Assembly (NCBI GenBank): GCA_020831765.1
Contig: JAFIFY010000100.1
Coordinates: 1-34,997, forward strand
DNA: 34,997 bases
Source: Phycisphaeraceae bacterium
GTDB lineage: Bacteria > Planctomycetota > Phycisphaerae > Phycisphaerales > Phycisphaeraceae
Direction of reading: 5' to 3'
Below are positions 10,262-33,817 of the stretch, piece after piece. Numbering within the stretch: the first letter of the stretch is position 1; every line of letters starts with the position of its first letter. Made by a program: the position numbers and the translations under genes. Below the pieces are notes generated by a model, which was not told the origin of the DNA, ran no database searches, and worked only from the letters and a program-made list of their open reading frames with translations.

Positions 10262-11470
10262 TCAGCGGATCGGGTCTTCAAGCACCAGTGGCTGATCGGC
10301 ATCCTCGATCGACGGGGCGATGGGTTGCCGCGGCGCTGGAGCCCGCGCCGCCGGCAGGACCTCGATGGGGAAAATGGCCTTGTAATCCGGGCCCCGTGCG
10401 ATATCGGTATGCACCGTGATGAACCACTTGAATCGCGGATAATCCGGGCCGTGAAAGCTTGATGGTTGGCCGTCGGGCAGGGTCAGGATGCCCGAATAAC
10501 GAAGCGCTTCGCCGGGCGAGACCATCTTGCCCGATTCGAAATTATCCTCCTGCGGGCAGTGAAAGAGCGTTTCTGATTCGTAATGGACCTCGGTTCCGTA
10601 GGAGGTCTCATTTCCACTCTTGCGTCGATAGTGCTCCTCACAACGCAGGCCGACATATACCGCATCGATGATCAGGCCCCGCTTGATGAGTTGTTCCACA
10701 TAGACGGTGATCGATTCACCGATGCGCGGCTTGGCGGTGTTGATCATGACCATCGCATCGTGGACCTGGCCGTAAAGCTTCAGATAATGGCGCGTCACAC
10801 CAAGCCCGATCAGGCCAAGACCACCGTAGATGCCAAGCGCGATGCTTGGGAATGCGGTCATGCGGCCACCGATTCCCGTGAAATGCAGCAGGCAGAACAA
10901 GCCTGCGAGCCACCAGAGCCCGGTGACGAAGCCTGAAGCCTTGAGCCGGGCGATCAGGCTCGTCGATGGGGCAAGTTCGAAGAAGCCCTCGATCGCCGGC
11001 TTGGGGTCTTCCTCAGTTTTCGATATCCGAGGCGCGCCGATCATGAAGCTGACGCCGACGGCGAAGAAAAGCATGGGAAAAAGCACGAAGATGTACGGGA
11101 AAAATGTGGGTTCCTTGAGCAGAAAGGACGAGGATGGACTTGATGGGAGGTAGTACGCGGTGACCGACTGGCCGACCGTGAAGCGATTGATGGTGCGCTG
11201 GGCTTCGGAACGACTTGAAGAATGCACCTCCAGCGGAAAGACCCGGTTACCGACATGGCTCTGACCGGCTACTTCGTACCGGTGATCGACCTTGGGCGCG
11301 TAAGACGTCCCATCGCTGTCCGACTGGATGTCGATCCAGGTCCGTTCGATGGTGGCCGTGATCGGCTGGTAACGGACCAGCATCACATGCTGATAAATGG
11401 CGAAGCCGACCCCCGCGGCCATCATGGTCAAGGGGATCAAGGTGAAGAAAAAGCCGAACTTTCTCATCAT
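10262..11470 (-). CDS. DUF3592/arrestin-like membrane protein, copy B
   Basis: A 402-residue protein, paralogue of the gene directly upstream. A membrane segment at ~8-28 is followed by a DUF3592-type domain (ATIERTWID.., DHRYEV, AYYLPSSPSSSFL; ~38-115) that ends at a second membrane segment (FFPYIFVLFPMLFFAVGVSF, ~118-137). Two further segments lie at ~175-235. The C-terminal half (~250-385) has a CEE..GTEVHYESE pattern and ends WFITVHTDIARGPDYKAIFPIEVL, recalling arrestin/Spo0M-like beta-sandwiches. ATG 11470 (MMRKF) is chosen because AGGAG at 11478-11482 precedes it by seven bases. It lies 85 bases after its paralogue and is probably co-transcribed. Function is unknown; DUF3592 proteins are generally uncharacterised. 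Confidence 0.8.
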   Translation of the reverse strand: MMRKFGFFFTLIPLTMMAAGVGFAIYQHVMLVRYQPITATIERTWIDIQSDSDGTSYAPKVDHRYEVAGQSHVGNRVFPLEVHSSSRSEAQRTINRFTVGQSVTAYYLPSSPSSSFLLKEPTFFPYIFVLFPMLFFAVGVSFMIGAPRISKTEEDPKPAIEGFFELAPSTSLIARLKASGFVTGLWWLAGLFCLLHFTGIGGRMTAFPSIALGIYGGLGLIGLGVTRHYLKLYGQVHDAMVMINTAKPRIGESITVYVEQLIKRGLIIDAVYVGLRCEEHYRRKSGNETSYGTEVHYESETLFHCPQEDNFESGKMVSPGEALRYSGILTLPDGQPSSFHGPDYPRFKWFITVHTDIARGPDYKAIFPIEVLPAARAPAPRQPIAPSIEDADQPLVLEDPIR

Positions 11471-11555
11471 GGCCGATCTCCTGTGACTGGGGGCCATACG
11501 CCGGTGTCCTAAGACCACCGATGATCGACAAGCCGGCATCGGCATGTTCCCAGGA

Positions 11556-12782
11556 TCAGAGCGAGATCCGGCGGATCGGTTCTTCAAGCACCAGCGGCCG
11601 TTCTTTGTCGTCGGGCGATTCGCCGGATGAAGCGGCGGGCTGAGTGACGGACTTGGCCGGCAGGACGGTCAGGGGGAAACGAGCCTTGTAATCCGGGCCG
11701 CGCAGAATATCGGTATGCACCGTGATGAACCATCTGAAGCGGGGGTAAAGTTTCTGGCGGGCGGGGGTGGAAGCGGGCAGGTTGTCGGGCAGGGTCAGCG
11801 TGCCGGTATAGCGAAGCGCTTCACCGGCCGCGACCACGCGGTCGGATTCGGCGCTGGTGCCGTCCGCACACTCGAACGGCTCCGAGCTTTCGTGGCGGAC
11901 ATGCGTGCCATATTCGGTTGATCTACCGGTGCTGCGCTTGTAGCTCTCCTCGCATCGCAGGCCGACGTTCATCGCGCTGACCGTCAGCCCTCTTTTGATC
12001 AATTGCTCGACGTAGACGGTCAGGGAGTCGCCGATGCGGGGCTCAGTGCGATCAATCATCACCAGGGCATCATGAAGCTGGCTTTGAAGTTTCAGATAGT
12101 AGCCCAGAATGCCGAAGCCGACGAGGCCGACGGCCCCATAGACACCCATGGCGATGCTCGGCATCATGGTCATCCGGCCGCCGATCCCGGTGAAGTGGAG
12201 CAGACAGACCAGGCCGATCAGCCACCAGAGCCCGGTCACCAACACAACGGCCTTCAGTCGCCGGCTGAGCCCCGCATCCGGGCTCAACTCGAAAAAACCT
12301 TCGATCGCCGGGCGCGGCGCGACATCATCCTTCGCTGGGCGCGGCCCGGCTAGCAGTATGCTCAGACCGATCACCACGAACAGCATCGGGAACATCGCAA
12401 AGATATAGGGGAAGAAGTCGGGCTCCTTGACCAGAAACGATTCTGAAGGATCCGAAGGGTTGTAATACGCGGTAACGGTATCACCCACCTGAAAGCGGTT
12501 GATCGTGCGCTGCGCGGCGGACCGATTCGATGATGAAACCTCCAGTGGATAGACATGGTCGCCGACGTAAGTCTGTCCCTCGACCTCGTAGCGGTGATCG
12601 ACCTTGGCCGCGTAGTTCGTGCTCTCGCTGCCCCGTCTGCTTTCGATCCATGTCCGTTCGATCGTGGCCGTCACCGGCTTATAGCGGACCAGCTTGGCGT
12701 GCTGGTTAATGGCCAGACCCGTTCCCACGGCGATGAAGATCAGTGGAAACAGTGTGAAGATGAGGCCGAACCATCTGGGCAT
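11556..12782 (-). CDS. DUF3592/arrestin-like membrane protein, copy A
   Basis: A 408-residue protein with the same layout as copy B: membrane segment (~7-27), DUF3592-like domain with ATIERTWIESR and DHRYEVEGQTYVGD, membrane segments near 118-137 and 180-235, then a soluble C-terminal domain ending WFITVHTDILRGPDYKARFPLTVL. By eye more than half of the residues match copy B over the full length, with best conservation in the membrane segments and around GLWWL/VCLLHFTGIGGRM. The start ATG 12782 is set by AAGGAG about eight bases upstream; a longer frame to 12857 lacks support. A TGCTAAAAT extended -10 at 12871-12879 could start the pair's transcript. The two copies form an obvious tandem duplication. 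No function is established. Confidence 0.8.
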   Translation of the reverse strand: MPRWFGLIFTLFPLIFIAVGTGLAINQHAKLVRYKPVTATIERTWIESRRGSESTNYAAKVDHRYEVEGQTYVGDHVYPLEVSSSNRSAAQRTINRFQVGDTVTAYYNPSDPSESFLVKEPDFFPYIFAMFPMLFVVIGLSILLAGPRPAKDDVAPRPAIEGFFELSPDAGLSRRLKAVVLVTGLWWLIGLVCLLHFTGIGGRMTMMPSIAMGVYGAVGLVGFGILGYYLKLQSQLHDALVMIDRTEPRIGDSLTVYVEQLIKRGLTVSAMNVGLRCEESYKRSTGRSTEYGTHVRHESSEPFECADGTSAESDRVVAAGEALRYTGTLTLPDNLPASTPARQKLYPRFRWFITVHTDILRGPDYKARFPLTVLPAKSVTQPAASSGESPDDKERPLVLEEPIRRISL

Positions 12783-12870
12783 TGACAATCTCCTTGGAAG
12801 CGCGATCACCGAACGGTGTTTCAAACCCGACGCTACGCCCGCTCCTTGGTCATTCACACGGATGTCGTTG

Positions 12871-27361: not shown

Positions 27362-27560
27362 AGGCGGTCCCTGTCATGGTCCTGCCCGGTCGCCCCGCAG
27401 TGGTTCGGTGGGTCGAATGCGGTTCCGGTCGCGTTGATGTCAAGCATAACGCGTTGGTCAGCGGTCGATGTCGCGTACTCTGGTTTTGCGATGTCTGGAA
27501 GTGAAGAGGGTTGTGGAGCAATGGGAGGCCGGATTGCGGGGTTGCGAGGTTTTTGAATTT

Positions 27561-27612
27561 CGGGGTTTCCGGGGCTTCCGGGCTTCCGGGGGTTCCGGGG
27601 GTTCCGGGGGTG
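27561..27612 (+). repeat. CGGGGnTTC tandem repeat before the polyphosphate kinase gene
   Basis: Six imperfect 8-9 base units: CGGGGTTTC, CGGGGCTTC, CGGGCTTC, CGGGGGTTC (twice), then CGGGGGTGG. It is the same family and strand as 9205-9233, and again sits in a region between divergent genes. Runs of 3-5 G give it G-quadruplex potential. Confidence 0.85.
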
Positions 27613-27645
27613 GCGATTCGTTATGGGGTGGGGTAATCTGTGGAC

Positions 27646-28488
27646 ATGGAAGACCTTGATCCACGGTTTGTCCGGGCGGATTCGAAGTGGCTGGCGCGTC
27701 ATCGGGTGGAGCCGGGCGGTGCGGTGGATCTGGCTTCGATTCCGTCGGTCGGTGGGCGGAAGCTGGACAAGAAGTCAGCGCGCAAGGCGTACCGGCGGTC
27801 GGTTCGGAAGCTCAGTGAGCTTCAGGAGAAGTTCTACGCCGATGGGCGTTTCGCCATGCTGGTGGTGTTCCAGGCGATGGATGCGGGAGGAAAAGACTCG
27901 ACGATCCGAAATGTTCTGGGCCCGCTGAATCCCCAGGGTTGCCGCGTTTCCAGCTTCAAGGTGCCGCACAGTGAGGAGGCCGCGCACGATTACCTCTGGC
28001 GAATTCACCGGGCCGCCCCTGCGCGGGGGATGATCGGCGTCTTCAACCGGTCGCATTACGAGGATGTGCTGGTGGTGCGCGTCAAGAATCTGGTCGAGGA
28101 GGAGCGCTGGCGGCGGCGGTATGAGCACATCAACCAGTTCGAGAAGATGCTCAGCGATGAGGGCACGGTGATTGTCAAATTTTTCCTGCACATTTCCAAT
28201 GAGTATCAGCGAAAGCGTTTGCAGCGACGGCTGGACCGGCCCGATAAGCATTGGAAGTTCAGTCCGGCGGACCTGGCCGAACGGGCCCGGTGGCCCAAGT
28301 ACACCGAGGCTTTTGAGGAGGCCCTGGCCCGTTGCTCGACGCCGCACGCTCCATGGCACATCATTCCGGCCGAGAACCGCTGGTACCGGAACTTAGCCGT
28401 CGCGCGGATTCTGCTGGCGACGATGCGTAAACTGGACTTGAGCTATCCGGAAGTCACGTTCGATCCATCCGAGATCAAGCTTACCTGA
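27646..28488 (+). CDS. Polyphosphate kinase 2 family, class III-type
   Basis: A 280-residue PPK2-family nucleotide kinase that uses polyphosphate to phosphorylate AMP/ADP or GDP. Walker A reads QAMDAGGKDSTI (~76-87), the lid region includes KVPHSEEAAHDYLWRIH, and Walker B reads GVFNRSHYEDVLVVRV (~131-146); the FNRSHYEDVL wording is that of the class III-like group (AMP and ADP acceptors), rather than DRSWYNR of classes I/II. Later motifs FFLHISNEYQRKRL and RWPKYTEAFEEAL..T are also typical. The start is ATG 27646; GTG 27640 in frame is possible. It is divergent from the glycosidase-like gene across the repeat region. The usual length of ~260-300 is met, with no transmembrane part. Confidence 0.93.
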   Translation: MEDLDPRFVRADSKWLARHRVEPGGAVDLASIPSVGGRKLDKKSARKAYRRSVRKLSELQEKFYADGRFAMLVVFQAMDAGGKDSTIRNVLGPLNPQGCRVSSFKVPHSEEAAHDYLWRIHRAAPARGMIGVFNRSHYEDVLVVRVKNLVEEERWRRRYEHINQFEKMLSDEGTVIVKFFLHISNEYQRKRLQRRLDRPDKHWKFSPADLAERARWPKYTEAFEEALARCSTPHAPWHIIPAENRWYRNLAVARILLATMRKLDLSYPEVTFDPSEIKLT

Positions 28489-28814
28489 ATCGGAGTGCAT
28501 GATCGGCCGCGATCGGGGCCGCCGGGGGCCGGGGGCTCGTGGCAACTTCCAAGCCTTGCCGAGTAATCCGCCGATATGCTTGATCGGGGTTCGCCGCGCT
28601 GGTGTGATGATCGGTCCCAAGACCCGAGGTGTGGTCTTGAGGTTGGCTGCTGCTGATGACGGCGGCACCGGGCGGATGTGCCTTGCGGGCAATCGTCCGC
28701 GTGTCGGAGGCCAGGCTTTCCGGGGCCGGGGCCGGGGCCGTGGGCGGGGTTCGGGGGTTCTGGGGTTTGTCTTCCGGGGGGCGGGGGCGGGGGTGGGCCT
28801 GTGGTGAGAACGGC
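28489..28814 (+). other. G-rich non-coding scar region before the truncated permease
   Basis: No convincing gene: the open frames in 28490-28807 are low complexity on both strands. It holds the G-rich tract at 28721-28800. The sequence does not match the region in front of the intact permease, so the similarity between the two loci begins at the ATG. Confidence 0.5.
28721..28800 (+). repeat. Long G-tract array with GGGGCC repeats
   Basis: Starts with three GGGGCC units (28722-28739) and continues with many runs of 3-6 G separated by 1-6 bases up to GGGGGTGGG. On this strand it has strong G-quadruplex potential. It stands 15 bases before the truncated permease copy. Confidence 0.85.
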
Positions 28815-29027
28815 ATGATTCGACAGATGGCACGAGAGGTTTACGAATACCGCGAGTTGCTGCTGGCGCTGGCATGGCGTGATATCCGCGTCAAGTACAA
28901 GCAGGCGGTGATGGGCATCACCCAAGCCACCAACGGCCTCCGCCCCGCACCCGACCGGTCAAGCCACAGGCCCATCGAACCGACGATAAACACCGGGCGT
29001 ACCAGACCGCGACGTGCCGATGCATAG
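28815..29027 (+). pseudogene. Truncated copy of the polysaccharide-export permease gene
   Basis: The first 106 bases (28815-28920) repeat the start of the intact permease gene (30308-30413) with five differences. Four are silent third-base changes and the fifth, at the edge, is Ile for Val. The protein begins MIRQMAREVYEYRELLLALA as in the intact gene, but after ...QAVMGI the frame runs into unrelated Pro/Arg-rich sequence and stops at 29027, before any membrane helix, so no transporter can be made. No Shine-Dalgarno as strong as that of the intact gene (GGAGG) is present. The silent changes suggest both copies descend from working genes. The copy and the intact gene bracket the epimerase gene as direct repeats 1,493 bases apart. 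Confidence 0.9.
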
Positions 29028-29047
29028 TGGATATGCTTAATTTCCAT
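28973..29047 (-). pseudogene. Possible 5' remnant of a sulfotransferase gene
   Basis: On the minus strand an ATG at 29047 opens a frame MEIKHIHYA... that reaches RPVFIVGSM (28973-28999). P(V/I)FIVGS(M/P) is the beginning of the PAPS-binding loop of sulfotransferases, normally followed by RSGTTLL. Here it continues GLWLDRSGAG and is unrelated from then on, as if cut. Sulfotransferases are common in planctomycete polysaccharide loci. The match is only eight residues, so this is tentative. Confidence 0.3.
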
Positions 29048-29108
29048 GAGGGCCCAGGGTCTGGTTCGGGCAGCTTCCGGGGTGAGCCCGTCGATGGAGG
29101 GTCGAAGA

Positions 29109-30179
29109 ATGGCAACGATTCTGATTACTGGTTCCAACGGCCTGATCGGCTCGGAGATGGTCCGCCATTTCCACGATCTGGGCTGGAAGGTCCACGGGGT
29201 GGACAACAACATGCGGGCCGATTTCTTCGGCACTCAGGGCGATACCCGCTGGAACCAGCAGCGCCTGCTCGAGCAGTGCCCGCGTTTCCAGCACGAGGAA
29301 CTGGACATCCGCGACCGCCCCGCCGTATCGGCCGTGGTCAGACGCCTTCGGCCGGATGCGGTCATCCACGCCGCCGCCCAGCCCAGCCACGACCTGGCCG
29401 CCCGGCGCCCCTTCGACGACTTCGACGTCAACGCTTCGGGCACGCTCAACCTCCTCGAGGCCATGCGCCAGGGCTGCCCGGAAGCGCCGCTCGTTCACCT
29501 TTCCACGAACAAGGTCTACGGCGACCGGCCCAACCGCATCGCCCTGCGAGAACTTGAAACCCGCTGGGACTTCGACGACCCGGCCTATGCCGAAGGCATC
29601 ACCGAGGACTTCCCCATCGACCAGTCCAAGCACTCGCTCTTCGGGGCCTCGAAGGTCGCCGGCGACATCATGGTCCAGGAGTACGGCCGCTACTTCGACA
29701 TGCCCACCTGCTGCCTGCGCGGCGGGTGTCTCACCGGCCCGGCCCACAGCGGCGTCGAGCTGCACGGCTTCCTCAGCTACCTGGTCAAGGTCAACGTCAC
29801 CGGCGGCCACTACACCGTCTTCGGCTACAAGGCCAAGCAGGTGCGCGACAACATCCACGCCTTCGATGTCGCCCGTTTCGCCGAGCTGTTCATCAACGGC
29901 CCCCGCACGGCCGAGGTCTACAACATCGGCGGCGGCCGGGCCAACGCCTGCTCGATCCTCGAGGCCTTCGCCCGCGTCGAGGCCCTCACCGGCCGGCCCA
30001 TGCAGTGGACCTACCGCGACCAGCCGCGAGAAGGCGACCACATCTGCTACATCAGCAACCTCGCCCGCATGAAGCAGCACTTCCCTGCTTGGGACATCAC
30101 GCGCTCGCTCGACGACATCTTCCAAGAGATCGTCGAAGCCTGGACCCGCCGCCTGGACACCGCCCGGCCCGTGGCCTGA
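29109..30179 (+). CDS. CDP-paratose 2-epimerase-like NAD-dependent sugar epimerase
   Basis: A 356-residue extended-SDR protein acting on nucleotide-activated sugars in surface-polysaccharide synthesis. NAD-binding TGSNGLIGS lies at 7-15, and the family's characteristic [11 protein letters not shown] near 136-146. A long conserved block follows: [60 protein letters not shown] and [10 protein letters not shown]. The SDR Tyr-x3-Lys is Phe178-x3-Lys182 here (LFGASK), so the usual catalytic Tyr is absent. ATG 29109 has GGAGG about eight bases upstream. Codon use differs from its neighbours: by my count about 22 of 27 Asp codons are GAC, whereas the downstream ATPase gene uses GAT for most. With the flanking permease duplication this suggests acquisition. 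The family also contains unproven sugar epimerases, so the substrate is open. Confidence 0.88.
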
Positions 30180-30271
30180 GGGGATGAACGCTCCATGAAA
30201 CAACGCAATCGACCAGACCTGATAGCAGCCGATCGCCATTGCGCGGCGTCGCCTCGCCTGTGGCCGCTGTG

Positions 30272-30293
30272 CCCCGCCGGAGGGCCGGTGGGG
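30272..30293 (+). promoter_or_regulatory. Hairpin just upstream of the permease ribosome-binding site
   Basis: CCCCGCCGG, a 4-base loop and CCGGTGGGG form a 9-bp stem (one G-T). It ends three bases before GAGGAGG, the ribosome-binding site of the permease. It could shield or position that site, or end the epimerase transcript; there is no T-run. Confidence 0.45.
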
Positions 30294-30307
30294 ACGAGGA
30301 GGCGACC

Positions 30308-30413
30308 ATGATCCGGCAGATGGCACGCGAGGTTTACGAATACCGCGAGTTGCTGCTGGCGCTGGCATGGCGGGATATCCGCGTCAAGTACAAGCAGGCG
30401 GTGATGGGCGTCA
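30308..30413 (+). repeat. Direct repeat, intact partner of 28815-28920
   Basis: The 5' 106 bases of the permease gene match 28815-28920 with five mismatches, starting exactly at the ATG. The offset between copies is 1,493 bases. Confidence 0.95.
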
Positions 30414-31159
30414 TGTGGATCTTCTTCATGCCCATTCTGGCGATTCTGGCCGGGATCATCATTCGCTTCGCGATGGCGTATCTTCAGGGCAGCGGCCTTT
30501 CGTGGGAGGCGGTGACCAGTGTCATCGCGCGGTCGCAGCCGTGGCTGATCTTCGCCGCGATCCTGGGCACCACCAGCCAGGGCCTGCTCAGCGGTATGCA
30601 ACTGGCCAGCAAGATTTACTTTCCGCGTCAGACCATTCCGTTGGCCAGCACACTGGGCGTCCTGTTTGATTTTGTCATCAGCATCACCGCGGTCAGCCTG
30701 GTGCTGGTTCTGGTCAGCGCTTTTGCGCCGGTGGGGATCATGTTCACCCCTTGGCTGTTGATGGTCCCGGTGCTGTTGTCACTGCTGGTGTTGATGGCGG
30801 TGGGTCTGGGACTGGTCTTCGGCACCGGGAACCTGTTTTTCCGTGATGTGAAGTACATTGTGCAGGTGATGCTTCAGTTTGGCATCTTTTTCACGCCCGT
30901 CTACTGGTTCGTCCACGAGATGGGCCGGTTCGGCCAGTTGATGATGCTCAACCCGATCGCGCCGCTGATCGAGGGGATCAGCCAGTGCGTCGTGGGGCAT
31001 GTCTCCGAAGGGGTGGGCGCGGGCGCGGTGTATATGCCCGGCATGGATGCGGCCATGTGGCCGTTCGTGATCTACAGCGCGGTGTTCGCGATCGGCTCGC
31101 TGTTGGCCGGCATGGCGATCTTCCGTCGAAGCGAACCGTGGTTCGCGGAGGTGATGTGA
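30308..31159 (+). CDS. ABC-2 type polysaccharide export permease (Wzm-like)
   Basis: A 283-residue inner-membrane permease with six hydrophobic segments. The start MIRQMAREVYEYRELLLALAWRDIRVKYKQAVMG is the amphipathic N-terminus typical of Wzm/TagG/RfbA permeases, followed by helices at ~38-58, ~85-105 (LIFAAILGTTSQGL), ~120-145, ~155-180, ~200-220 and ~255-275. The conserved LFFRDVKYIVQVMLQFGIFFTPVYW lies near 176-200. It pairs with the Wzt-type ATPase to export lipid-linked O-antigen or capsule. ATG 30308 is set by GGAGG (30298-30302). Its TGA overlaps a GTG just before the ATPase gene's ATG at 31162, so the two are coupled. The N-terminal sequence is duplicated upstream in a dead fragment. 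Confidence 0.95.
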   Translation: MIRQMAREVYEYRELLLALAWRDIRVKYKQAVMGVMWIFFMPILAILAGIIIRFAMAYLQGSGLSWEAVTSVIARSQPWLIFAAILGTTSQGLLSGMQLASKIYFPRQTIPLASTLGVLFDFVISITAVSLVLVLVSAFAPVGIMFTPWLLMVPVLLSLLVLMAVGLGLVFGTGNLFFRDVKYIVQVMLQFGIFFTPVYWFVHEMGRFGQLMMLNPIAPLIEGISQCVVGHVSEGVGAGAVYMPGMDAAMWPFVIYSAVFAIGSLLAGMAIFRRSEPWFAEVM

Positions 31160-31161
31160 TC

Positions 31162-32433
31162 ATGTCGGCAACCGAGCGGGCCATACGGATCGATCGAGTG
31201 TGGAAGAAGTTCCGCGTGGGGGAGTTCCACGATTCGCTGCGCGATCTGATTCCCGATCTGTTCCGCCGGATCGTCGGCCGGGGCGTTCAGCGGGATGAGC
31301 TGGGCAGCAAGGAGTTCTGGGCGCTCAAGGATGTGGCGTTCGAGGTTGGCAAGGGTGAATCGCTGGGCATCATCGGTCCCAACGGCGCGGGCAAGAGTAC
31401 GTTGCTCAAGGTTCTCAGCCGGATCATGCGGCCCGATCGCGGCCGCTACGAGGTCGATGGCCGCGTGTCAGCGCTGATTGAAGTGGGGGCCGGCTTCCAT
31501 CCCGACCTGACCGGCCGCGAGAACCTGTTCCTCAACGGCGCGATCCTGGGCATGAAGCGAGCCGAGGTCAAGGCCCGCGAAGAAGAGATCATCGAGTTCT
31601 CCGGCATCGGTCGATTCATCGATACACCGGTGAAGCGTTTCAGTTCGGGCATGAAGGCGCGCCTGGGCTTCGCCGTGGCAGCGCATCTGAAGCCGGACAT
31701 CCTGCTGGTGGATGAAGTGCTCAGCGTCGGCGATGCGGCGTTCCGTGGCAAGTGCGTACGCTTCATGCGGCAACTGATCCAGTCGGATGTGACGGTGGTG
31801 TTCATCAGTCACATCCTCGAGCAGGTCCGCCGGCTCTGTCCGCGAACGGTCGTGTTGGATCAGGGGCAGACGGTGTATGACGGCCCGACGGACGGAGCGA
31901 TTCGAAAGTACATGGAGTTGATATCGAAGCATACCGGGCTGGTTGGCGCATCGCAGGCGGCGGCGGTCATACAGAACGTGCGCTTCTGCGATCAGGATGA
32001 TCAGGAGGTTCTGGAGTGGAATGCGCAAGAGCCGGGTGTGGTTCACTTTGATCTGGTGGTCCACCGGCCGATCCATGCCCCGCATGTGAAGATCAACTTC
32101 TGCGCCCTGGGCGGACAGTGGCTGGGTGTGGCCAACTCCGTGGATAAGCTGGACCTGCCGGGCGAGCCGGGTGTGTATCCCCTCAAGCTGACGCTTGATC
32201 CGGTACCTTTTGTCAATGGTGATTTCGAGCTTCAATTCGAAATCGGCGGCGTTGATGGCGAGCGCGGCGATGAAGGCGGCCCGATATGGTCTTCCTCGCA
32301 GCCGATGGTGCTGACGGTGCGTGATCCGCGTTCCGGCGCTCCCGGCGTTCGTTGCGAAGGTGTATGGGAGCGCGCCAACGAGCCGGGACTGGGCGCATCA
32401 TTGGAACGCCTGAGCAGTCCGTCGATATCGTGA
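31162..32433 (+). CDS. Polysaccharide export ABC ATPase with Wzt-type C-terminal domain
   Basis: A 423-residue ATPase partner of the permease. Walker A GPNGAGKST (72-80), signature SSGMKARLGFA (161-171), Walker B ILLVDEVLSVGD (180-191) and switch His in FISHIL (~215) are intact; the FSSGM/VDEVLSVGD wording is specific to O-antigen/teichoic-acid exporters. Residues ~265-400 form a beta-rich domain of the Wzt-C kind, which in E. coli O9a binds the capped glycan end; this suggests that the chain is finished before export. ATG 31162 is chosen; an in-frame GTG at 31156 overlaps the permease stop. GGAGG at 31147-31151 serves as ribosome-binding site. Codon use returns to GAT-rich, unlike the upstream epimerase gene. 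Confidence 0.94.
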   Translation: MSATERAIRIDRVWKKFRVGEFHDSLRDLIPDLFRRIVGRGVQRDELGSKEFWALKDVAFEVGKGESLGIIGPNGAGKSTLLKVLSRIMRPDRGRYEVDGRVSALIEVGAGFHPDLTGRENLFLNGAILGMKRAEVKAREEEIIEFSGIGRFIDTPVKRFSSGMKARLGFAVAAHLKPDILLVDEVLSVGDAAFRGKCVRFMRQLIQSDVTVVFISHILEQVRRLCPRTVVLDQGQTVYDGPTDGAIRKYMELISKHTGLVGASQAAAVIQNVRFCDQDDQEVLEWNAQEPGVVHFDLVVHRPIHAPHVKINFCALGGQWLGVANSVDKLDLPGEPGVYPLKLTLDPVPFVNGDFELQFEIGGVDGERGDEGGPIWSSSQPMVLTVRDPRSGAPGVRCEGVWERANEPGLGASLERLSSPSIS

Positions 32434-32456: not shown

Positions 32457-32531
32457 ATGCGTGTACCCGGGCTGCTGATGAACTTGCACGTGGCCAAGCG
32501 AAACATGCATGCGATCGGGCTCAACGTTTAG
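32457..32531 (+). CDS. Possible 24-residue small ORF between ATPase and glycosyltransferase
   Basis: ATG 32457 to TAG 32531 encodes 24 residues beginning MRVPGLLMNLHV, with AAGGGG about eight bases upstream. It fills the 112-base gap in an otherwise tight gene run and ends 14 bases before the next ATG. It may be a leader peptide, a remnant of a lost gene or chance. Confidence 0.25.
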   Translation: MRVPGLLMNLHVAKRNMHAIGLNV

Positions 32532-32545
32532 ACTGCCCCAACGTA

Positions 32546-33817
32546 ATGAGACTTCCGTTGACAAGCGCTTCAGGCCATCCCAAAGTTCTCGTGATCTCCA
32601 CCTCCTGGCCGCCGGTCAAGACCGGGGGCGCCAATTACGCCCTGCGGTACTGTCGGGAGTTGGTGACGCGGGGAATGGAAGTTCATGTATTGACCCGGCA
32701 GCGCCCGGATGCCGTTACGGACCCCACGCTGACTGTTGCCCCGATCATGCGCGACTGGTCATGGCGGAGCCTGCCTCGCTTGATGCGATTTGTTGATCGA
32801 CTCGGACCGGATGCCATTGTTCTGCACTTCATGGGGCGCATCTACGACAACCACCCGATGGTCACGCTGCTGCCCGCCCTGCTCAAGCGACGAAGGCCCG
32901 AACTGCGCTTTATCACCATGATGGAATACGCCTCCGGCACGGAACATATTCACTGGCGCCGCCTCACAGCAATGGGCCATCGTTGGTTCGCCCGGCGGGT
33001 CGGTTGGGAAGGGTTGAACTATGAATTCGGAGTGCTGCTTCGTGATAGTGATGCGGTCATGGCGCTTTGTCAGTCGCACCAGCAGAGACTGTGCGGATTG
33101 CAGCCGGGCCTCAATGGCCGTTGCCACCTCACGCCACCACCTCCCCTGATGGCGTTCAGTGAGAAGCCGCCGGAATCCGCCCGCCTTGCCGGCAGGAAAG
33201 CGCTGGGCGTGGAACCGGATCGCTTTCTGTTCGCCTATTTCGGTTACATCTACCCTTACAAAGGATTGGAGACGTTGATTCAAGCGGCGGCCATCGTCGA
33301 CCGGCAAGCGCCGGATCGGCCCTGGCGATTGGGCATGCTTGGTGGCGCGGCGGAGACTTATCTTCGCGATCTGGGCCGGCCGGACTATCCCGAGCAAATG
33401 CGTCGGCTGGCCGAACAGCACGGCATCGCGGATCGCCTGATCTGGTCGGGCTACATGGATGAGGATTCAATCTCGGACATTCTCCACGCGGTGGACTGCT
33501 GCGTCCTGCCCTTTGATAGCGGCGTGCATCTGAACAACAGTTCTTTCGCCGCCGTGGTCGCACACGGCATTCCCGTCCTGACCACCGGCGGGCCAAACAC
33601 CGATGAGCCCTTCGAGCACGGGCACAACTGCATCCTTGCCGAGCCGAAGAACGCCGAGAATCTTGCACAGTGGATGTTGCGGATCATGGATGATCAGACC
33701 ATGCGTGCCCAACTGCGTGCTGGTGGGATTCAGATGGCGCAAACATGGTTTTCATGGGATCGGACCATGAAAATCACAATGGAAGCGATGGGCATCCAGC
33801 CGCTTGAGGGTTCATGA
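32546..33817 (+). CDS. Glycosyltransferase family 4
   Basis: A 423-residue GT-B-fold sugar transferase, probably cytosolic or membrane-associated, adding a sugar to the polysaccharide repeat. The N-terminal Rossmann half opens with STSWPPVKTGGANYALRYC (~16-34), the GG acceptor/phosphate loop of GT4 enzymes. The C-terminal half has FLFAYFGYIYPYKGLETLIQAA (~228-249), where the Gly-x-x-Pro-x-Lys motif is seen, and LPFDSGVHLNNSSFAAVVAHGIPVLTT (~320-346), with the E-x7-E region altered (SGVHLNNSSFA). The NDP-sugar donor is not predictable. ATG 32546 has no strong Shine-Dalgarno. It is in the same direction as the permease and ATPase genes, and faces the convergent GT2 gene 36 bases away. Confidence 0.9.
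   Translation: MRLPLTSASGHPKVLVISTSWPPVKTGGANYALRYCRELVTRGMEVHVLTRQRPDAVTDPTLTVAPIMRDWSWRSLPRLMRFVDRLGPDAIVLHFMGRIYDNHPMVTLLPALLKRRRPELRFITMMEYASGTEHIHWRRLTAMGHRWFARRVGWEGLNYEFGVLLRDSDAVMALCQSHQQRLCGLQPGLNGRCHLTPPPPLMAFSEKPPESARLAGRKALGVEPDRFLFAYFGYIYPYKGLETLIQAAAIVDRQAPDRPWRLGMLGGAAETYLRDLGRPDYPEQMRRLAEQHGIADRLIWSGYMDEDSISDILHAVDCCVLPFDSGVHLNNSSFAAVVAHGIPVLTTGGPNTDEPFEHGHNCILAEPKNAENLAQWMLRIMDDQTMRAQLRAGGIQMAQTWFSWDRTMKITMEAMGIQPLEGS

Follow-up and report, generated by a model that had tools for sequence, protein, structure and literature searches.

Homology-facilitated illegitimate recombination (HFIR) has been proposed for the orphan immunity gene arrays at the T6SS loci of Vibrio cholerae (PMC5361080) and has been reported in E. 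coli conjugation (PMC3240628), and merodiploids of Streptococcus pneumoniae have been described in which tandem duplications form via the uptake of partly repeated DNA (PMC3784515). The HFIR scars of V. cholerae and E. coli have one side that is anchored by homology, another that is joined without homology, and a displaced piece of resident DNA, and the locus described here, from a Phycisphaeraceae bacterium, would likewise combine these traits. Our literature searches retrieved nothing relevant on remnants in wzm/wzt O-antigen loci and nothing on illegitimate recombination in polysaccharide clusters. The locus lies in a window of 34,997 nucleotides (the whole stretch of DNA analysed), taken from an assembly of 193 contigs that is probably a MAG. 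We consider it somewhat probable that the locus arose by a one-sided, homology-anchored insertion of DNA from a related strain, which left a dead 5′ stub of the permease gene behind; as a rearrangement the scar is clear, and of an ordinary kind. Its features, in window coordinates, are the following.

27640–28488, plus strand: gene for a PPK2-type polyphosphate kinase, the left neighbour, of ordinary codon use (Pfam PF03976, E 1.9e-75)
28489–28814, no strand: G-rich intergenic stretch ahead of the stub, unalignable with the sequence ahead of the intact permease
28815–28920, plus strand: stub, a dead 5′ permease copy comprising the first 35 codons and one base, from the repeat alignment
28920–28921, no strand: novel joint, the end of permease homology in the alignment of the copies
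28921–29108, no strand: 188-bp spacer from stub to epimerase gene, without a detectable permease or ATPase remnant
29109–30179, plus strand: epimerase gene (EPI), 356 aa, a CDP-tyvelose-2-epimerase-like extended SDR in which Phe178 replaces the catalytic Tyr, with extreme use of C-ending codons
30180–30307, no strand: 128-bp spacer from EPI to the intact permease
30308–31159, plus strand: intact ABC-2 permease (P), Wzm-like, 283 aa, whose first 106 bases are the second repeat copy
31162–32433, plus strand: ABC ATPase, Wzt-like, 423 aa (PF00005)
32546–33817, plus strand: GT4-type glycosyltransferase (GT4), relatives of which adjoin EPI in genome G004 and lie near the start of a short contig in genome G001

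The permease matches PF01061 with 29.1 bits, above the cut-off of 26.9, and adjoins an ATPase of the export group (PF00005), the C-terminus of which scores 26.7 bits against Wzt_C (PF14524), below the cut-off of 30.4. The best NCBIfam models for permease and ATPase are polysaccharide or teichoic acid exporters, with scores under their cut-offs, and among the matches listed for EPI, P, the ATPase (25 of 182) and GT4 no NCBIfam model reached its cut-off. Mobile-element genes were not found among the seven frames scanned around the joint, nor were promoter or terminator signals found at the locus. The PPK2 gene is close to the genome median in GC3 and in C-ending codons, the start of EPI is better taken at 29109 than at the longer 29046 start, and the stretch 28489–28814 is probably the upstream region of the first permease copy. 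Sequence similar to its G-rich part at 28714–28797 (and, by eye, to 27540–27630) recurs on eight further contigs of this genome, at nine places in all, which may represent simple-sequence likeness or a repeat family. A reverse-strand sulfotransferase remnant suspected by eye in 28921–29046 was discarded, as it has no Pfam match and its best non-self hit (E 0.004) contains internal stops. An open frame of 24 codons without a Pfam match lies between the ATPase and GT4 genes (32457–32531), and the same contig also holds an older tandem duplication, formed by the neighbouring minus-strand frames 10262–11587 and 11556–12857, with DNA repeats of 77–81% at a spacing of 1306–1312.

The duplication of the permease start that was claimed in a preliminary description was recounted and holds, as positions 28815–28920 and 30308–30413 are identical at 101 of 106 bases, with an exact common run of 44 bases. 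In a search of its own assembly the second copy scores E 6.5e-43, far above chance, and no third copy is present in the 4.71-Mb, 193-contig assembly. The match reaches one base 5′ of the start codon (28814/30307) and then ends; when the 40 to 131 bases upstream of both copies are aligned outward from their start codons, the scores are no better than those of shuffled sequence (1704, 929, 1318 and 676 of 2000 shuffles reach the score), and 32 of 500 shuffles score as high as the one short G+C-rich local match (an 18-mer) between the EPI–P spacer and the sequence preceding the stub. At the other end permease identity breaks off between 28917 and 28920, so that the stub frame, open over 70 codons until the stop at 29027, consists of 35 permease residues followed by 35 unrelated ones, and neither the frame nor its part after codon 35 has a Pfam match. 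Four of the five differences (ATT/ATC, CGA/CGG, CGA/CGC and CGT/CGG) are silent third-position changes, as had been noted; the fifth, ATC/GTC, is the replacement I35V, which makes the earlier wording of silent-only differences inexact.

Over the 35 codons Ks is about 0.19 and Ka 0.012 between stub and intact permease, and the probability of at least four silent differences in five is p 0.011 in the absence of constraint on either copy and 0.069 when one of them is assumed dead from the outset, a bias which is weak with only five differences. To judge from these values, most of the divergence probably predates the stub. Residue 35 is Ile in four of six relatives, Val in one and Phe in one; since the commonest residue, Ile, is that of the stub, the replacement probably arose on the lineage of the intact permease. 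It is most likely that both copies were functional while they diverged, either in separate cells or as a retained duplicate pair, and that the stub is younger than most of the divergence. The earlier proposal that the incoming copy derived from a related, functional permease gene rather than from a fresh duplication is in this respect supported by the excess of silent changes and weakened by I35V, and the copies themselves are indistinguishable as to which was the incomer.

When 400 genomes drawn from the order were searched, seven were found to carry P at E <= 1e-40, namely the window's own and six from other genera of its family, in which P is 46–58% identical (58% for the nearest permease). 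No genus mate of the window's genome appeared in these searches, and neither did a donor or an insert-free strain. The orthologous P–ATPase pair is present in all six relatives with a single P and without a 5′ fragment (stretches of 4.3–19.5 kb were examined), the other P hits in their genomes being long and more distant ones, and an orthologue of EPI is absent from five of the six (best E 1e-10 to 2e-18; these five assemblies are 70–96% complete). The alignment with relatives suggested in the preliminary description, in search of the pair without epimerase and without fragment, thus came out as it had anticipated for the fragment in all six and for EPI in five. The sixth relative, G004, of which RpoB is 76% identical to that of the window's genome, has the order P–ATPase–EPI–GT4 in one direction, with identities of 47, 56, 77 and 44% (tblastn). 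EPI is therefore a known associate of this export locus, and because G004 holds it across the ATPase beside the same type of glycosyltransferase, the tie may be old and a duplication followed by loss is possible. GT4 of this type is rare (at E <= 1e-30 it occurs in four of 61 genomes, counting that of the window), and its nearest relative (50%, in G001) sits on an 8.4-kb contig without P, ATPase or EPI. No relatives of the permease were found in viral contigs. All six relatives have a polysaccharide-deacetylase-like gene, so named by reading the sequence rather than by family search, which is divergent and in front of P. Its best match in the window's genome (L255, C26:36188-37036) is 53% identical, as against 63–70% in the relatives, and may be a paralogue; since it lies on another contig with no permease nearby, the deacetylase-like gene/permease pair has probably changed place in the window's lineage.

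The codon use of EPI sets it apart from its neighbours. As first described, 22 of its 27 Asp codons are GAC, compared to 0 of 4, 5 of 28 and 7 of 23 in the genes to its right, and the wider codon and GC3 comparison that had been recommended makes it an outlier in its genome and places it near the top of its own family. Against 243 genes with a minimum of 250 codons, sampled from 613 kb of the genome, the C-ending fractions of EPI (0.91 at two-fold and 0.66 at four-fold codons) exceed those of every sampled gene, its GC3 of 0.90 and its GAC use both stand at the 99.6th percentile, and the mean C-ending fraction over 151 genes is 0.56 as against 0.91. High expression was rejected as the cause, as EF-Tu (0.72) and RpoB (0.71) are less extreme. 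Relatives of EPI exceed their own neighbours in C-ending codons by a mean of 0.07 (sd 0.10) over 78 loci, two of 80 having been left out for having fewer than two neighbour frames; the excess of 0.326 in the window is reached by two of the 78, the near-identical sisters L235 (0.347) and L244 (0.328), in a comparison where neighbour frames were chosen by length, some of them false, and where four known neighbours were used for the window. Five of the ten sampled genes richest in C-ending codons (0.76–0.88) are mobile or R-M genes (a transposase, an integrase, a serine recombinase and two HsdM-type methylases), compared to none of ten near-median controls, and the other five, PrmC included, are not obviously mobile, for which reason the measure is no clean mark of import, though it may serve as a rough marker of acquired genes in this genome. 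The genes of the sample that are richest in C-ending codons include L140, L120, L119 and L121 (transposase, integrase, recombinase and HsdM-type methylases). The codon use of EPI supports a recent arrival without proving it.

A wider scan yielded 357 loci encoding relatives of EPI, of which the best 80 by likeness to the window were kept; these are 66–76% identical and come from Verrucomicrobiota, Bacteroidota, Chloroflexota, Cyanobacteriota, Acidobacteriota, Planctomycetota and other phyla. Matches in the order numbered 38 besides the window's own, and the 29 that came with loci were aligned with the window and with the 80 to give an alignment and tree of 110 rows. In this tree the EPIs of the window, of G004 and of a Verrucomicrobia protein (L167) group together (100/97) and are separate from the type that is common in the window's order. 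The window and G004 are sisters in the best trees (98/46 with 110 rows, 98/79 with 40 rows); the two alternative pairings among the three give AU p 0.28 and 0.16, and the test also does not reject (AU p 0.11) a tree in which three order-type rows join the window and G004. The trees were not taken as firm proof that EPI is shared by descent between the window and G004, as the AU test rejects none of these groupings. Of 109 loci, whose flanks are uneven in length, eight have P or ATPase at most 6 kb from EPI; EPI is directly ahead of P in L167 and L213 (the automatic count gave one, the stop-to-stop frame of the L167 permease overlapping EPI), and in G004 EPI directly follows the ATPase. The families found most often beside EPI in the 80 loci, each in at most 15, are glycosyltransferases, a second SDR and O-antigen ligase-like proteins, which fits a function in glycan synthesis.

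Under a one-sided insertion, P would in the ancestor have lain directly downstream of the G-rich region now at 28489–28814. DNA of a related strain would then have entered with EPI ahead of its own allele of P, about 5% different; its right end would have recombined by homology in P or beyond, and its left end would have been joined without homology at codon 35 of the resident P, by HFIR proper or by a close kin of that mechanism. The outcome would be the order stub, spacer, EPI, intact P, ATPase and GT4, in which P function would be kept and the resident 5′ end would have become the dead 106-bp stub. EPI would thereby come to precede the export pair in the same orientation, where the old upstream region could drive the whole run as a presumptive shared transcript, and its most likely role is to supply a nucleotide sugar for the glycan that is exported. 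A boundary at the start codon, a sharp joint and flanks that do not align are to be expected if two alleles of P from different contexts met, and the EPI–P order in L167 and L213 makes a donor of such an order plausible. As in an HFIR-type scar, two diverged copies of a resident segment bracket DNA that is presumably new. Homology stops abruptly at 28920, as read from the recipient side of the joint. The insertion accounts for both ends of the repeat, at the start codon and at the sharp joint, for the silent bias and the outlying codon use, and for the lack of the structure in the relatives.

A history without any foreign DNA, which we regard as rather unlikely, would start from the order P–ATPase–EPI–GT4 and proceed by tandem duplication of P–ATPase–EPI, after which the first copy lost the rest of P and the ATPase and the second lost EPI. 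Exactly this starting order, in one direction, is that of G004, where the rare GT4 adjoins the set as it does in the window, and the stub sits precisely where a half-deleted first copy would; the EPIs of the two genomes are sisters in the best trees, a grouping that the AU values do not make firm, and the nearest GT4 relative stands apart from P, ATPase and EPI. The remnants that such a history predicts were not found, there being no ATPase remnant ahead of EPI and no EPI remnant between ATPase and GT4, although short ones may have decayed too far: the scores of the 188-bp spacer were reached by 91 of 500 shuffles against the ATPase end and by 105 of 500 against the rest of P and ATPase, and those of the ATPase–GT4 spacer against EPI by 386 and 492 of 500. 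A duplication with loss would further make a repeat that starts at the start codon a matter of luck, would need both copies to stay functional until the observed Ks was reached, and predicts that EPI matches P, ATPase and GT4 in codon use, which it does not.

Integration of the Campbell type, in which one crossover within the 106 bp brought in a circular molecule with EPI and part of P, yields the same flank pattern with both copies as hybrids of resident and incoming sequence, and in E. coli there is a precedent of linear incoming DNA that was circularised before a single crossover (PMC3240628). The circle must have held just the first 106 bp of P, and we consider this route improbable; the five differences cannot show a hybrid point, so that it is inseparable from the favoured insertion. 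That reads of two strains or loci were joined at the permease during assembly is suggested by the number of contigs and by the exact 44-base run, and is very unlikely, as the joint at 28920/28921 lies outside the shared sequence, the assembly runs through the full length of both copies and the stated contamination is 0.06. Least probable of all is a fresh local duplication of the permease start, against which the silent bias counts, being unlikely under drift, or a stub that is a conserved small gene. The latter, named in the preliminary description as a ground for refutation, draws on the open frame of 70 codons, but no stand-alone copy was found in 60 relatives, and the frame after codon 35 has no Pfam family match; one short hit (G010, C23:3461-3580), considered as a second stub, was dismissed because it sits at the end of a 3637-base contig.

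The duplicate-and-insert reading of the preliminary description is accordingly the likeliest, and is unproven: its cassette recombined in at the permease agrees with the relatives, the codon outlier and the silent bias, whereas the order in G004 leaves room for duplication and loss, and the donor is unseen among the genomes searched. Given such an insertion, the scar is a readable case of a glycan gene entering a polysaccharide-export operon with export unbroken. It would differ from the V. cholerae and E. coli cases in what is left behind, a 5′ stub of 106 bp from a transport gene. Like the S. pneumoniae merodiploids, the window would hold a transfer-driven duplication beside a chromosomal gene, and it is unlike them in that theirs are tandem duplications with repeats at the flanks.

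The best solved relatives of EPI are CDP-tyvelose 2-epimerases (9rl0, TaTyvE, E 2.6e-33; 1orr, StTyvE, E 7.2e-31), and a model of EPI (pLDDT 84.8, pTM 0.87) has TyvE at Foldseek rank 1 (E 6.0e-26) and matches 1orr with a VIA Z of 42.6 and an rmsd of 1.7 over 330 aligned residues, the next entry having Z 36.4. The SDR triad of TaTyvE is Thr124, Tyr164 and Lys168, with Tyr164 as the likely base (PMC13098431), and roles of further TyvE residues, including the cytosine-binding Trp207, Trp210 and Phe211, have been described (PMC7851689). In the sequence alignment it is Phe178 of EPI (codon 29640–29642) that stands at Tyr164, and in 110 rows chosen by likeness to the window this column holds Phe in 109, Met in one (L213) and Tyr in none, as compared to Tyr in 18 of 18 more distant SDR relatives. 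Thr133, Asn134 and Lys135 (Thr-Asn-Lys) are invariant in 110 of 110, as are Arg246 and Arg307, which by alignment are the phosphate-binding Arg237 and Arg299 of TyvE; Lys182 of YxxxK is present in 109 with one gap, His94 is found in 109 rows, Asp95 in all 110, and Cys207 does not vary. Because the active site is conserved to this extent, EPI would appear to be a functional nucleotide-sugar enzyme, not a defunct one, that relies on a different base and perhaps on a different nucleotide.

A tentative extension of this reading places EPI in a family of TyvE-like nucleotide-sugar SDRs, spread across phyla, with Phe in place of the base Tyr (F-x3-K), which would use another base, perhaps His94-Asp95 or Cys207 of the substrate loop, would represent a third way beside Yx3K and Mx3K, and would travel as mobile cargo of glycan-export loci. 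A literature search found no title or abstract on a Phe-for-Tyr branch of TyvE-like enzymes, a weak negative given its poor coverage of subscription journals. Structures 1a9y, 8rdi and 6wj9 carry Tyr-to-Phe by their titles, as a deliberate change in related epimerases. Relatives of EPI in many phyla keep almost all of the epimerase active-site residues save the presumed base, which makes the need for Tyr directly testable, and the enzyme family may be a more useful by-product than the scar itself and raises the interest of the locus.

Compared to StTyvE and TaTyvE, EPI has the closest fold and shares the NAD-binding glycines, Thr-Asn-Lys, the Lys of YxxxK and both phosphate-binding Arg residues. 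It differs in that the catalytic Tyr is replaced by Phe178 and the cytosine-binding Trp207, Trp210 and Phe211 by Phe221, Tyr224 and Leu225, while the VAM segment of TyvE corresponds to Pro-Ser-His followed by Asp (His94-Asp95 replacing Met85-Thr86 of TaTyvE by alignment), and Ser193 of TaTyvE to the invariant Cys207 of the EPI family. An SDR that lacks the Tyr is not new in kind, because the UDP-GlcNAc 4,6-dehydratases WbpM and PglF, with Met for Tyr (Mx3K), are known to work, the base of PglF being a Thr-Asp pair (PMC8987622). WbpM and PglF resemble EPI as sugar-nucleotide SDRs without the catalytic Tyr, and are unlike it in having Met rather than Phe, in belonging to the dehydratase branch and, for PglF, in carrying Thr-Asp-Lys where EPI has Thr-Asn-Lys.
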